Source of the DNA: Actinomycetospora lemnae
Lineage (GTDB): Bacteria; Actinomycetota; Actinomycetes; Mycobacteriales; Pseudonocardiaceae
Length of the DNA: 64,000 nt
Assembly: GCF_028737315.1 (NCBI RefSeq)
Contig: NZ_JAQZAO010000004.1
Coordinates: forward strand, 1-64,000
Direction of reading: 5' to 3'
Shown one piece after another: positions 229-3,631 of the stretch. How positions within the stretch are numbered: position 1 is the first letter of the stretch; every line of letters starts with the position of its first letter. Position numbers and translations under genes: made by a program. A model generated the notes under the pieces. That model made no database searches. It was given only the letters and a program-made list of their open reading frames with translations, and was not told the DNA's origin.

Positions 229-268
229 GACCTGTCGACCTGGACATGTCCAGATGGACTGCTAGCGT
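229..268 (+). promoter_or_regulatory. padR promoter with two phased operator boxes
   Basis: Two octamers start exactly 14 bp apart: gacctgtc (229-236) and gacatgtc (243-250). The second lies inside the perfect 12-bp palindrome TGGACATGTCCA (241-252). TGGACA at 241-246 can act as a -35 with a 16-bp spacer to a -10-like TAGCGT (263-268). That puts the transcription start at about the ATG at 275, so the message may be leaderless. The same box spaced by 14 bp recurs at 1514-1549 in front of the facing membrane-protein gene, which suggests a common regulator, most simply PadR itself. Confidence 0.55.
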
Positions 269-274
269 GCGCCC

Positions 275-811
275 ATGTCGCTGCGCCACGCCCTCCTGGG
301 TCTGCTCGCCCACGGCCCGGCCAGCGGCTACGACCTCACCCGCGCCTTCGACGGCAGCATCGGCCGCTACGCCTGGCACGCCGGCCACAGCCGCATCTAC
401 CCGGAGCTCGCCAAGATGACCGAGGCCGGGCAGGTCGTCGTCGAGGAGACGGGCCCGCGCGGGCGGAAGACCTACGCGCTCACCGACGACGGCCGCCTCG
501 AGCTGCGGCGCTGGATGCTGCACTGGCCCGAGCAGACCACCGTGCGCGACGAGACGGTGCTGCGGATGTTCCTCGTGCAGTCCCTCGAGCCCGAGGACGC
601 GCGCCGGCTGCTGGAGGGCATCGCCGCCCACTGCGCGGACCGGATCGCGGAGCTGCGCCCACTGATGGACGCCGAGGACGCCGAGCACTCTCCGGGCGCG
701 CAGGTCCCGTTCGGCCGGCTCGCCGGCGAGTACGGGCTGCGCCAGTACGAGGCCGTGCACGGGTGGGCACTGTGGAGCCTGGCGCGGCTCGGGGCTACGG
801 TGCCGGGCTGA
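275..811 (+). CDS. PadR family transcriptional regulator
   Basis: 178 residues. It begins with a PadR winged-helix domain (about 5-80: LRHALLGLLAHGPASGYDL, then SRIYPELAKMTEAGQV and the wing with RGRKTYALTDDG), followed by a C-terminal dimerisation domain with the long helix typical of the PadR/Vir_act_alpha_C group. The ATG at 275 lies right where a leaderless transcript from the promoter at 241-268 would start. PadR proteins usually repress their own gene and a neighbouring membrane or efflux gene. Here the convergent VC0807-type gene carries the same operator boxes, so auto- and co-regulation is the likely role. The inducing ligand is unknown. The family call is firm; the target assignment is inference. 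Confidence 0.9.
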   Translation: MSLRHALLGLLAHGPASGYDLTRAFDGSIGRYAWHAGHSRIYPELAKMTEAGQVVVEETGPRGRKTYALTDDGRLELRRWMLHWPEQTTVRDETVLRMFLVQSLEPEDARRLLEGIAAHCADRIAELRPLMDAEDAEHSPGAQVPFGRLAGEYGLRQYEAVHGWALWSLARLGATVPG

Positions 812-820
812 CCAGGCCGG

Positions 821-1546
821 TCACGCCGTAGCGGTGGGCTCCTGCGCGTGCGCCTCGGCCCACGCGCGGGCCTTCGGCCCGGTGCGCGCGCCGTACCAGC
901 CGTTCCAGACCGAGAGCCCGACGATGACGGCGACGAGCATGGCCGTCGACAGCCCGACCATGACGTCGAGCGGCAGCAGGTAGATCAGCGGGACGCGCAC
1001 GATCGCCAGGAGCAGCAGGCCGACGCCCCACACCACGGCCGACACCCGGAACGTGCGGCGCACGGGCGGCAGCGTCCGGTAGAGCTCCGCCATCTCGCGG
1101 GCCCGGCGCGGCTGCGAGGTCTGGTACGCCGAGAGCGTCAGCGGCGTGCCGCCGAGCAGGCTCGCGAGGAAGACCAGGCCGACCAGCCCGGTGGTGAACG
1201 AGTCGGTGACCAGCAGGAATCGCGGGTCGCCGTCGACGAACGCCAGCGCGAGCCCGACGCCGAACACCGTGAGCATCAGCGCCGCGAACCACGTGACCCG
1301 GCGCGTGCGCACCGCCACCCACGCCAGCCGCACCCCGGCGACGAGCGAGGCGACGAGCAGCGCCACCCAGTCGGTCGCGCCCGCGAGCCGCAGCGCGTAG
1401 TAGGCGACGAGCGGGGCGCCGACGTCGAAGAACAGCCCGGAGAACTGCTGCAGGACCGAGTAGCCGGGCTCGTCGTCGCCCTCGTTCTTCCCGTGCTCCA
1501 CGGGAGCAGCGTCCACCTGTCCAGCACGACATGTCAACCAGGACAT
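821..1546 (-). CDS. VC0807-type integral membrane protein
   Basis: Up to 241 residues with about six hydrophobic segments (for example around GAPLVAYYALRLAG, WFAALMLTVFGVGLAL, TTGLVGLVFLASLLGG, AVVWGVGLLLLAIV). The pattern FFDVGAPLVAYY...GDPRFLLVTDSFTTG matches what I know of VC0807-like membrane proteins, whose biochemical role is not established; members often sit beside PadR or TetR regulators. The ATG at 1546 is the longest start, but the three operator-like boxes at 1514-1549 would then be inside the gene. GTG at 1516 or 1501 is therefore a serious alternative, removing residues upstream of the first membrane helix. It converges on padR with a 9-bp gap. Confidence 0.7.
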   Translation of the reverse strand: MSWLTCRAGQVDAAPVEHGKNEGDDEPGYSVLQQFSGLFFDVGAPLVAYYALRLAGATDWVALLVASLVAGVRLAWVAVRTRRVTWFAALMLTVFGVGLALAFVDGDPRFLLVTDSFTTGLVGLVFLASLLGGTPLTLSAYQTSQPRRAREMAELYRTLPPVRRTFRVSAVVWGVGLLLLAIVRVPLIYLLPLDVMVGLSTAMLVAVIVGLSVWNGWYGARTGPKARAWAEAHAQEPTATA

Positions 1547-1549
1547 GTC
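1514..1549 (-). promoter_or_regulatory. Triple 14-bp-phased operator before the VC0807-type gene
   Basis: Boxes cacctgtc (1514-1521), gacatgtc (1528-1535) and gacatgtc (1542-1549) start at exact 14-bp intervals. The pair at 229-250 upstream of padR uses the same spacing and sequence. On the minus strand a consensus -35, TTGACA, lies at 1537-1532 and overlaps the middle box. The arrangement suggests cooperative binding by a dimeric repressor, most simply the PadR protein encoded at 275-811. No good -10 is visible at the standard distance, so promoter details are uncertain. Confidence 0.5.
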
Positions 1550-2189
1550 ACTCGTCGGCGTCCAGACCGCGCTCGATGGCGTATCTCGTCAGCTCGACGC
1601 GGTTGGTGAGCTGGAGCTTGCGCAGGGAGTTCTGGACGTGGTTCTCCACCGTGCGGTGCGAGAGCGTCAGCCGGGTGGCGATCGCGCGGGCGGTGAGACC
1701 CTTGGCGACGAGGCGGAGCACCTCGGTCTCGCGCGGGGTGAGCTGCGGGGCGTCCGGGGCCTCGGTCTCGCGGCGCCGGTACTCGCCGAGCACGAGGCCC
1801 GCCAGGCCGGGGGAGAACACGGCCTGGCCGGCGGCGGTGCGGGTGACCGCGTCGACCAGCTCGTCCATGCCGGCGGACTTGACGAGGTAGCCCGACGCCC
1901 CGGCGCGCACGGCCTCGATGACGTCGCCGTGCTCGGTGCTGGCCGAGAGCACGAGCACGCGGGTGTCGGGCAGCGCCGTCCGGATCTGCTCGGTCGCCTG
2001 CGCGCCGGAGAGCTCGGGGAGCTGCAGGTCCATGAGCACGACGTCGGGGCGCACGGCCTTCGCGATGCGCACCGCGGCGGCGCCGTCGGGAGCGGTCGCG
2101 ACGACGTCGACCTCCCGCTCGGCGAGGTCGCGGGCGACGCCCTCGCGCCAGATCGGGTGGTCGTCGACGACCATGACCCGCACCGTCAC
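1548..2189 (-). CDS. LuxR/NarL-type response regulator
   Basis: 213 residues. It has an N-terminal receiver domain (acidic pair in VMVVDDHP near residue 9, phosphoacceptor Asp in DVVLMDLQLPE near 55, switch Ser in VLSAS, Lys in SGYLVKSAG) and a C-terminal LuxR helix-turn-helix (LTPRETEVLRLVAKGLTARAIA, then HRTVENHVQ). The start is GTG at 2189, preceded by a strong AGGAGG, and overlaps the kinase stop by 4 bp (GTGA), so the two are translationally coupled. It should be phosphorylated by the upstream kinase and bind DNA; the targets are not visible from sequence. Confidence 0.93.
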   Translation of the reverse strand: MTVRVMVVDDHPIWREGVARDLAEREVDVVATAPDGAAAVRIAKAVRPDVVLMDLQLPELSGAQATEQIRTALPDTRVLVLSASTEHGDVIEAVRAGASGYLVKSAGMDELVDAVTRTAAGQAVFSPGLAGLVLGEYRRRETEAPDAPQLTPRETEVLRLVAKGLTARAIATRLTLSHRTVENHVQNSLRKLQLTNRVELTRYAIERGLDADE

Positions 2190-3352
2190 GGCTTCCTCCT
2201 CCGCGGGACGACGACCTCCCACTCGGTGCCCTCGCCGGGCCCGGTGTGCAGCGTGATGGTGCCGCCGAGGGCGTCCACCCGTCCCCGCATCGACGCGGCC
2301 ACGCCGAGGTGACCCTCGGCGACGGCCTCGTCCAGCCGGCCCTCGGGGATGCCGACGCCGTCGTCGCGCAGGCTCACGGTGACCGCCGCCGGGTCGTCCT
2401 CCACGAGCACCCACAGGCCGGCGCCGGGACCCGCGTGGGCGGCGGCGTTGCCCGCGCCCTCGCGCACCACCGCGGCCAGCTCGTCGACCACCGTGGCGGG
2501 CAGGAGCACCGGCTCCGCGGGCACGGCGAGGGATGCGTGGGCGGGCAGGACCCCGGCGAGCCGCGACGACAGGTCGACCGTGCCGTCGGGACCCGGCGTC
2601 GGCGCCGACGTGATCAACCGGCGCAGCGCGACCTCCTGCTCGCCGGCGAGGCGGGCCAGCTCGAGGCCGGGAGCACTGTCGTCGGCGGTGCTCGTCCTCG
2701 CCAGCTCGTCGCCCCGCCGCCGGACGAGCGCGAGGACCTGGAGCACGCCGTCGTGGATGTCGCGGGCGAGGCGCTCGCGCTCGGCGGTCGCGGCCTCGCG
2801 GGCGGCGGCGGCGCGCAGCTGCTCGACCAAGCGGCGCATGGTGTCGGCGGCGAGCCCGACCGCGAGCCCGGCGATGACGAGGAGCTGGGCGTCGAAGAGC
2901 AGGTCGCCGTCGAGGGCGCGCCGCACGCCGAACAGCACCCCGACCGTGACCACCGCGCCGGCGAGCCCGCCCCGCCACCCCAGCGCGATCGCCATCGCCA
3001 GCACCGGACCGGCCGACCACACCGTCGTGATCACCGAGCCGCCCTGCGCCAGGCGCTCCGGGGTGTCGACGAGCAGCGTCGACGCGGTGGCGAGGGCCGT
3101 GATCAGCAGGTCGGCGACCGCGGTGCCGGCGTCGCCGCGGCGCAGGTAGCGCACCGACGACACGGCGGTCCACGCGACCATCACGGCGACCACGGCCACC
3201 CCGAGCGCCGGGCGCGCCCACTCCCCGGCGAAGCGCGCGACGTTGACCAGCGCCGCGACCAGCGTCACGACCCGGTACACCACGAGGCCGCGCCACAGCG
3301 GGACCAGCTGGGGGTGCGCCCGCGCGCGCGGCGAGACGTCGGGGCTCGTCAC
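2186..3352 (-). CDS. Sensor histidine kinase, MacS-like (NarL system family)
   Basis: About 388 residues. The N-terminal half has several hydrophobic segments (YRVVTLVAALVNVARF, LGVAVVAVMVAWTAV, PVLAMAIALGWRGGLAGAVV, LLVIAGLAVGLAADT). Then comes a HisKA_3 region with RDIHDGVLQ, the phosphorylated His in the HDxxxQ context of NarL-type kinases, and a HATPase domain with REGAGNAAAHA (N box) and DDGVGIP (G box). GTG at 3352 has GGGGGAGGT just upstream and is preferred; a GTG at 3400 would add 16 residues. The membrane-sensor layout resembles the MacS group. It forms an operon with the overlapping response regulator. The signal is unknown. Confidence 0.88.
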   Translation of the reverse strand: MTSPDVSPRARAHPQLVPLWRGLVVYRVVTLVAALVNVARFAGEWARPALGVAVVAVMVAWTAVSSVRYLRRGDAGTAVADLLITALATASTLLVDTPERLAQGGSVITTVWSAGPVLAMAIALGWRGGLAGAVVTVGVLFGVRRALDGDLLFDAQLLVIAGLAVGLAADTMRRLVEQLRAAAAREAATAERERLARDIHDGVLQVLALVRRRGDELARTSTADDSAPGLELARLAGEQEVALRRLITSAPTPGPDGTVDLSSRLAGVLPAHASLAVPAEPVLLPATVVDELAAVVREGAGNAAAHAGPGAGLWVLVEDDPAAVTVSLRDDGVGIPEGRLDEAVAEGHLGVAASMRGRVDALGGTITLHTGPGEGTEWEVVVPRRRKP

Positions 3353-3631
3353 GGCACCTCCCCCGGCGTGGTCGGCGAGCGTCGCGGGCACGGACGACAC
3401 CCTCGCCCCACCCGGCCGTGGGCGGGATGGGGGGAACTACTCACCGGAGGACCCGTCCTCGTTCCCCGGACGGATGCCCCCGGTCACTGGCCAATCGGCG
3501 AACGGCCTACCGCGAGGTATCGATCGTGGCAGAAGATCCCGGAAGGGCTAACGCCGCGCCACGTGGGGCCGAACAGCCGAGCACCAGAACGCCTGCTCGG
3601 ACCCACGTCGGGCGCCATCAGAGGGGGACAC

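Follow-up and report, generated by a model that had tools for sequence, protein, structure and literature searches.

In the 64-kb stretch of DNA analysed here (the window), a padR gene is faced by a gene for a VC0807-family membrane protein, upstream of which lie genes for a response regulator and a sensor histidine kinase (Table 1). The padR product exceeds the Pfam cut-offs for the PadR winged helix-turn-helix domain (PF03551; 42.9 bits against a cut-off of 27, E = 5e-11) and for Vir_act_alpha_C (PF10400; 45.9 bits against 22.4, E = 9.2e-12), as members of the long AphA/PadR-type subfamily do. Its closest solved chain is 5x11, a PadR family regulator (profile E = 2.6e-30), followed by AphA (1yg2, E = 6.4e-28), and the recognition region AGHSRIYPELAKM is nearly the same as the aligned AKHSQIYPELKKL of 5x11. 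We take the 5x11 group to be the Bacillus subtilis PadR, a phenolic-acid-responsive repressor. The membrane protein scores above the cut-off of the VC0807 family, NF041646 (138.5 bits against 65, E = 1.9e-40). Its AlphaFold2 model, built from an eight-row alignment, is all-helical with a mean pLDDT of 80.6, and a comparison of this model with the PDB gave no match at E <= 0.001, the best being 0.33.

Table 1. Genes, putative operator boxes and putative promoter elements of the locus, with positions counted from the first base of the window.
Feature	Position	Strand	Sequence	Remarks
padR, PadR-family regulator with AphA-type C-terminal domain, 178 aa	275-811	+		Pfam PF03551, PF10400
VC0807-family membrane protein	821-1501	-		NF041646; likely GTG start at 1501
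LuxR-type response regulator	1548-2189	-		PF00072, PF00196; neighbour outside the proposed regulon
MacS-family sensor histidine kinase	2186-3400	-		NF047322, 391 bits against a cut-off of 300
Putative operator box 1 of padR	229-236		GACCTGTC	1 mismatch
Putative operator box 2 of padR	243-250		GACATGTC	overlaps putative -35
Putative -35 of padR	241-246	+	TGGACA	by eye; overlaps box 2; 16-nt spacer
Putative -10 of padR	263-268	+	TAGCGT	6 nt before ATG
Putative operator box 3 of VC0807	1514-1521		CACCTGTC	2 mismatches; between putative -35 and -10
Putative operator box 2 of VC0807	1528-1535		GACATGTC	overlaps -35 TTGACA
Putative operator box 1 of VC0807	1542-1549		GACATGTC	overlaps response-regulator stop codon (1548-1550)
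Putative -35 of VC0807	1532-1537	-	TTGACA	by eye
Putative -10 of VC0807	1508-1513	-	GACGCT	18-nt spacer; 6 nt before GTG 1501

A first-pass annotation of this DNA described boxes repeated at 14-bp steps ahead of both padR and the VC0807 gene. All five are present where it placed them, and every box-to-box step is exactly 14 bp. Three boxes are exact copies of GACATGTC, at 243, 1528 and 1542, the only exact copies in the window; the box at 229 has one mismatch and the box at 1514 has two. Within the genus, box 2 of padR, at -32/-33, is exact in all ten loci, and box 1, at -46/-47, has at most one mismatch in eight of the ten and reads AACCTGTC, with two mismatches, in L005 and L007. The genus loci also have a box with at most two mismatches at the position of VC0807 box 3.

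The boxes coincide with probable promoters. A TANNNT sequence stands 6-7 nt ahead of the padR ATG in 10 of 10 genus loci, a layout typical of leaderless actinobacterial messages. With the -10 element only 6 nt before the ATG, the padR message is probably leaderless, as had been suggested. The VC0807 gene had been offered with an ATG start at 1546, in a frame that would run through the boxes; comparison of the upstream regions instead favours GTG 1501 as the likely start, and this message also looks leaderless. The order of -35, -10 and start at VC0807 is kept in seven of ten genus loci, the exceptions being L067, which is ambiguous, L068, which has lost the gene, and L069, where a leader with GAGGAG precedes the ATG. 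The register in which box and -35 element overlap is shared by the two promoters (TKGACAtgtc), and an overlap of box and -35 can be seen by eye in several promoters of the carotenoid oxygenase (CCD) genes described below. A scan with an E. coli-type sigma-70 consensus found no promoter at either site, and the -35 and -10 assignments thus rest on comparison by eye.

Single boxes are no commoner in the window than in shuffled sequence (22 with at most one mismatch, against a shuffle mean of 23.15), so the signal lies in the pairing. The genome scan for box pairs at 14-bp spacing that the first-pass annotation proposed found GACATGTC-N6-GACATGTC with at most two mismatches in three places in the 6.06-Mb genome, all at this locus, compared to one place for the reversed control. 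At three mismatches there were 10 places against 4 for the control, and additional strong sites elsewhere in the genome are thus not clearly indicated. The VC0807 promoter holds the genome's single copy of TTGACATGTC, but the reversed control likewise turns up once, so that this count alone is meaningless. Among 18 Actinomycetospora genomes, the exact core ACATGTC-N6-GACATGT was found in 12 places, always at this locus, and its control in none; in G012 the core lies beside the VC0807 gene, which stands some 3 kb from padR there. The core is present in 10 of 10 genomes that have this padR and in 0 of 8 that lack it (Fisher p = 2.3e-5, uncorrected for phylogeny; G013, one of the eight, is only 59% complete).

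Conservation of the boxes in related species extends well beyond the genus. For the 21 closest PadR homologs (L001-L021, 39-100% identity), a box with at most one mismatch lies within 100 bases before padR in 20. The exception, L016, has no box near padR; its pair stands immediately ahead of the CCD gene, at a distance of 575-589 bases from padR. Among the next-nearest PadR genes (L022-L030), an exact box was found in one of nine, L029, some 270-295 bases upstream. We then combined the 21 closest loci with the best 80 named loci, six of which (L086-L090, L129) repeat loci among the 21; with seven dropped, this left 94 distinct upstream regions. A box with at most one mismatch is present in 89 of these (mean 9.8 and maximum 22 in 20 shuffles), a 14-bp pair in 50 (none in shuffles), and the spacings between boxes peak at 14 (57 cases), 28/29 (36) and 42/43 (8).

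In excerpts of two papers, the PadR operator consists of ATGT and ACAT with about 8 bp between them, or ATGT-N8-ACAT (PMC3506622, PMC5428041). This unit is contained in GACATGTC-N6-GACATGTC, which bears out the earlier reading of the boxes as PadR-type sites. It is exact at 1528-1549, and CTGT replaces ATGT at 229-250 and 1514-1535. Taking these observations together, we infer, with a probability of roughly 0.82, that the boxes are operators of the PadR encoded at 275-811, which would bind as one dimer per pair of boxes, repress padR and VC0807 and be released by a ligand, and that an oxygenase gene once linked to them has been lost. A PadR dimer on two boxes 14 bp apart would occupy one ATGT-N8-ACAT unit, with its dyad between the boxes. 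PadR would repress its own gene through the boxes at 229 and 243 and the membrane protein gene through those at 1514, 1528 and 1542, where three boxes would offer two overlapping dimer registers. Since a box overlaps the -35 element in both promoters, the bound repressor should exclude RNA polymerase. By analogy with PadR proteins that have been characterised, a small molecule is predicted to release it from the DNA. The switch would operate in relatives between padR and a divergent CCD gene, and the window lineage would be left with two genes under the boxes. Autoregulation and control of VC0807, both part of the original proposal, are supported by comparison, in that boxes sit on both promoters.

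How the dimers are seated on the boxes is where an alternative carries most weight, namely that each 8-bp box is a dimer site by itself and that phased dimers bind cooperatively, as the first-pass annotation had it. In favour of this arrangement, every exact box is a perfect palindrome, and some loci have arrays with as many as five boxes, not all of them intact, at 14-bp steps (L073, L164). The published unit, however, needs two half-sites 8 bp apart, which adjacent boxes supply. With 10.5 bp per turn of the DNA helix, a 14-bp step does not complete a whole turn count, and dimers on adjacent boxes would therefore lie about 120 degrees apart. Conservation of the box edges bears on both arrangements. 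In isolated pairs the outer edges are less conserved than the inner ones (34/50 against 45/50, p = 0.013), as they are in pairs without a left neighbour (34/52 against 47/52, p = 0.004), which speaks against single-box dimers. On the 3' side there is no difference (32/44 against 34/44), and the best pair of every locus shows no asymmetry (121/160 outer, 118/160 inner), a point in their favour. A first edge count, which favoured a dyad between boxes with a Fisher p of 9e-7 from rounded values, was set aside; it counted overlapping arrays, and the stricter tests are weaker. One dimer per pair is the more likely arrangement; the published unit speaks for it, edge conservation does so weakly, and we consider cooperative dimers on single boxes unlikely.

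It is less probable still that PadR activates VC0807 in the manner of AphA. The match of its C-terminal domain to Vir_act_alpha_C and the rank of AphA as second-best solved relative would fit an activator, but the boxes cover the putative -35 and, at VC0807, the spacer, which is the position of a repressor. We give very little credence to the idea that the boxes serve another regulator, such as the adjoining LuxR-type response regulator. Its stop codon does overlap the box at 1542, and its gene, together with that of the kinase, is found not only in the window but in nine further genus loci, of which eight also have VC0807. Nevertheless, tblastn finds no such regulator in L070-L080, where boxes precede padR in most loci, and boxes accompany padR in 89 of the 94 upstream regions. 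Transcription from the kinase and regulator genes may read through the boxes into VC0807. Chance repetition has a negligible probability. Single near-matches do occur at chance level in the window, but in this genome pairs with at most two mismatches are limited to the one locus, and such pairs are conserved across families; we regard this explanation as refuted.

The regulon had originally been drawn as padR and the facing VC0807 gene. Both promoters do carry boxes, but the partner in relatives is mostly a different one, namely a CCD gene (carotenoid oxygenase, PF03055), which is divergent from padR at 17 of the 21 closest loci. In most of the 17, the two genes share one box-bearing stretch; they are further apart in L075 and L076. 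CCD is absent from the locus in the window, in its nearest relative L061 (A. straminea), and in L077 and L078. All 17 padR-linked CCDs exceed the PF03055 cut-off. Members of this family bind their metal with four histidines, and the four motifs are visible in the CCD of L063. The best NCBIfam match of the L063 protein is NF052295, the 8'-apo-carotenoid 13,14-cleaving dioxygenase family, at 355 bits, below the equivalog cut-off of 675. In lignostilbene dioxygenase, an active-site tyrosine and a lysine contact the phenol. When L063, one of the 17 linked CCDs, was compared with 6ojw, the lysine aligned with a valine and the tyrosine fell in an insertion. A phenolic stilbene was considered as substrate of these enzymes and is not favoured, given that the one CCD compared with 6ojw is without the tyrosine and lysine.

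Over a wider range of relatives the partner varies. A divergent CCD gene lies upstream of padR in 36 of the best 80 named loci; the other 44 were judged from the start of the divergent protein and, for 9 of the 44, by Pfam. These comprise 21 DHA2-type transporters, 3 FAD hydroxylases, 4 alpha/beta hydrolases, 7 small (about 190 aa) membrane proteins and 2 VC0807 proteins, with 5 ambiguous cases and 2 with too little sequence. By this comparison a wider PadR clade, whose targets change, has the operator type in common, so that CCD alone becomes a weaker guide to the ligand.

VC0807 is a recurrent companion of CCD outside the genus, where it follows the CCD gene in 5 of the 11 non-genus loci among the 21 closest (L070-L074). 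Of the named loci outside the genus in which CCD is divergent, 12 of 32 have it in that place, a count made with one query that may miss remote copies. Inside the genus, 9 of 10 loci have VC0807 facing padR, with three boxes of its own. In L069, which has both genes, the CCD and VC0807 promoters are alike at 38 of 51 bases, and at only 15 of 27 outside the boxes; it is possible that one promoter was copied from the other. VC0807 aligns with a membrane protein of about 190 aa found beside CCD in other Actinomycetota (hhalign probability 77%, E = 2.1e-5), and among such proteins that of L140 matches NF041646 at E = 4.9e-7, below the cut-off, and that of L160 gives no match. Together these values do no more than suggest homology. 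In L131, L145, L150, L154, L157 and L161, a membrane protein of about 180-210 aa, which may be a remote VC0807 relative, is encoded between padR and the divergent CCD.

The genome of the window has two CCD genes elsewhere, on contigs C29 and C11. In a tree, the C29 CCD groups with seven CCDs of the genus whose genes lie away from this padR; the padR-linked CCD of G007 branches next to this group. No box with at most one mismatch occurs in 450 bases around the start of the C29 gene. The C11 CCD is of a distant type and adjoins a VC0807-like gene, with no such box in 900 bases. In this region (G000:C11 259157-261178, L082) the VC0807-like gene precedes the CCD, and similar neighbours are found in several genus genomes, which suggests a recurrent partnership of CCD with the VC0807 superfamily.

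We infer that the padR-linked oxygenase was lost from the window lineage rather than never present. Other genomes of the genus have lost different parts of the locus. In G008 the boxes are kept and VC0807 is gone, a loss that is less certain given the fragmented assembly (84% complete). In G002 a CCD gene with a box pair (2 mismatches) is kept and padR and VC0807 are gone from the locus, and no close copy of either was found elsewhere in that genome. At the contig end, on the side where relatives have CCD, positions 1-117 of the window hold the tail of a frame that looks transposase- or integrase-like by eye; an insertion there may have accompanied the loss of CCD. In A. straminea (L002), which also lacks CCD at the locus, a perfect inverted repeat of 52 bases, counted by eye, separates padR from the gene before it, about 50-100 bases upstream of padR.

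As to the signal, our guess is a ligand of the apocarotenoid type, based on the absence of the lignostilbene residues from the L063 CCD and on its sub-cut-off match to NF052295. We speculate, as a tentative extension, that this PadR clade is an apocarotenoid-responsive switch in many Actinomycetota that senses a CCD substrate or product and derepresses CCD together with a membrane-level helper of the VC0807 superfamily, and that the window lineage lost the linked enzyme and kept VC0807. This model is possible, if doubtful.

The PadR operator and repressor type was already known; the link between PadR and CCD was not found in print. Among the matches listed in the open-access literature, we found none that connects PadR with a carotenoid oxygenase and, by title, no PadR paper for GACATGTC as letters. 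Our search likewise found no study, by title or start of abstract, of this PadR clade or its palindromic sites, and no literature on VC0807. The analysis thus offers a sequence-defined regulon for a PadR clade for which we located no study. CCD, whose substrate is unassigned, and the VC0807 membrane family, both uncharacterised as partners, gain a regulatory handle. It also points to one genus in which natural gene losses separate operators, regulator and targets.

Among known systems, the 5x11 PadR shares with this locus a nearly identical recognition region, the ATGT-N8-ACAT operator type and the long protein with a C-terminal domain. Bacillus PadR targets phenolic acid decarboxylase, whereas the targets here would be VC0807 and, in relatives, a carotenoid oxygenase, and the phased arrays here are built of boxes extended to 8-bp palindromes. 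AphA of Vibrio cholerae, a quorum-sensing regulator of virulence and competence, is related in protein sequence over its whole length (1yg2). LmrR of Lactococcus lactis is a shorter protein without the AphA-like C-terminal domain, and it differs in its multidrug ligands and its target, lmrCD. Like the PadR proposed here, LmrR represses its own gene together with a membrane-transporter operon, and its operators hold inverted repeats of the PadR consensus, according to an excerpt of one study (PMC5428041).
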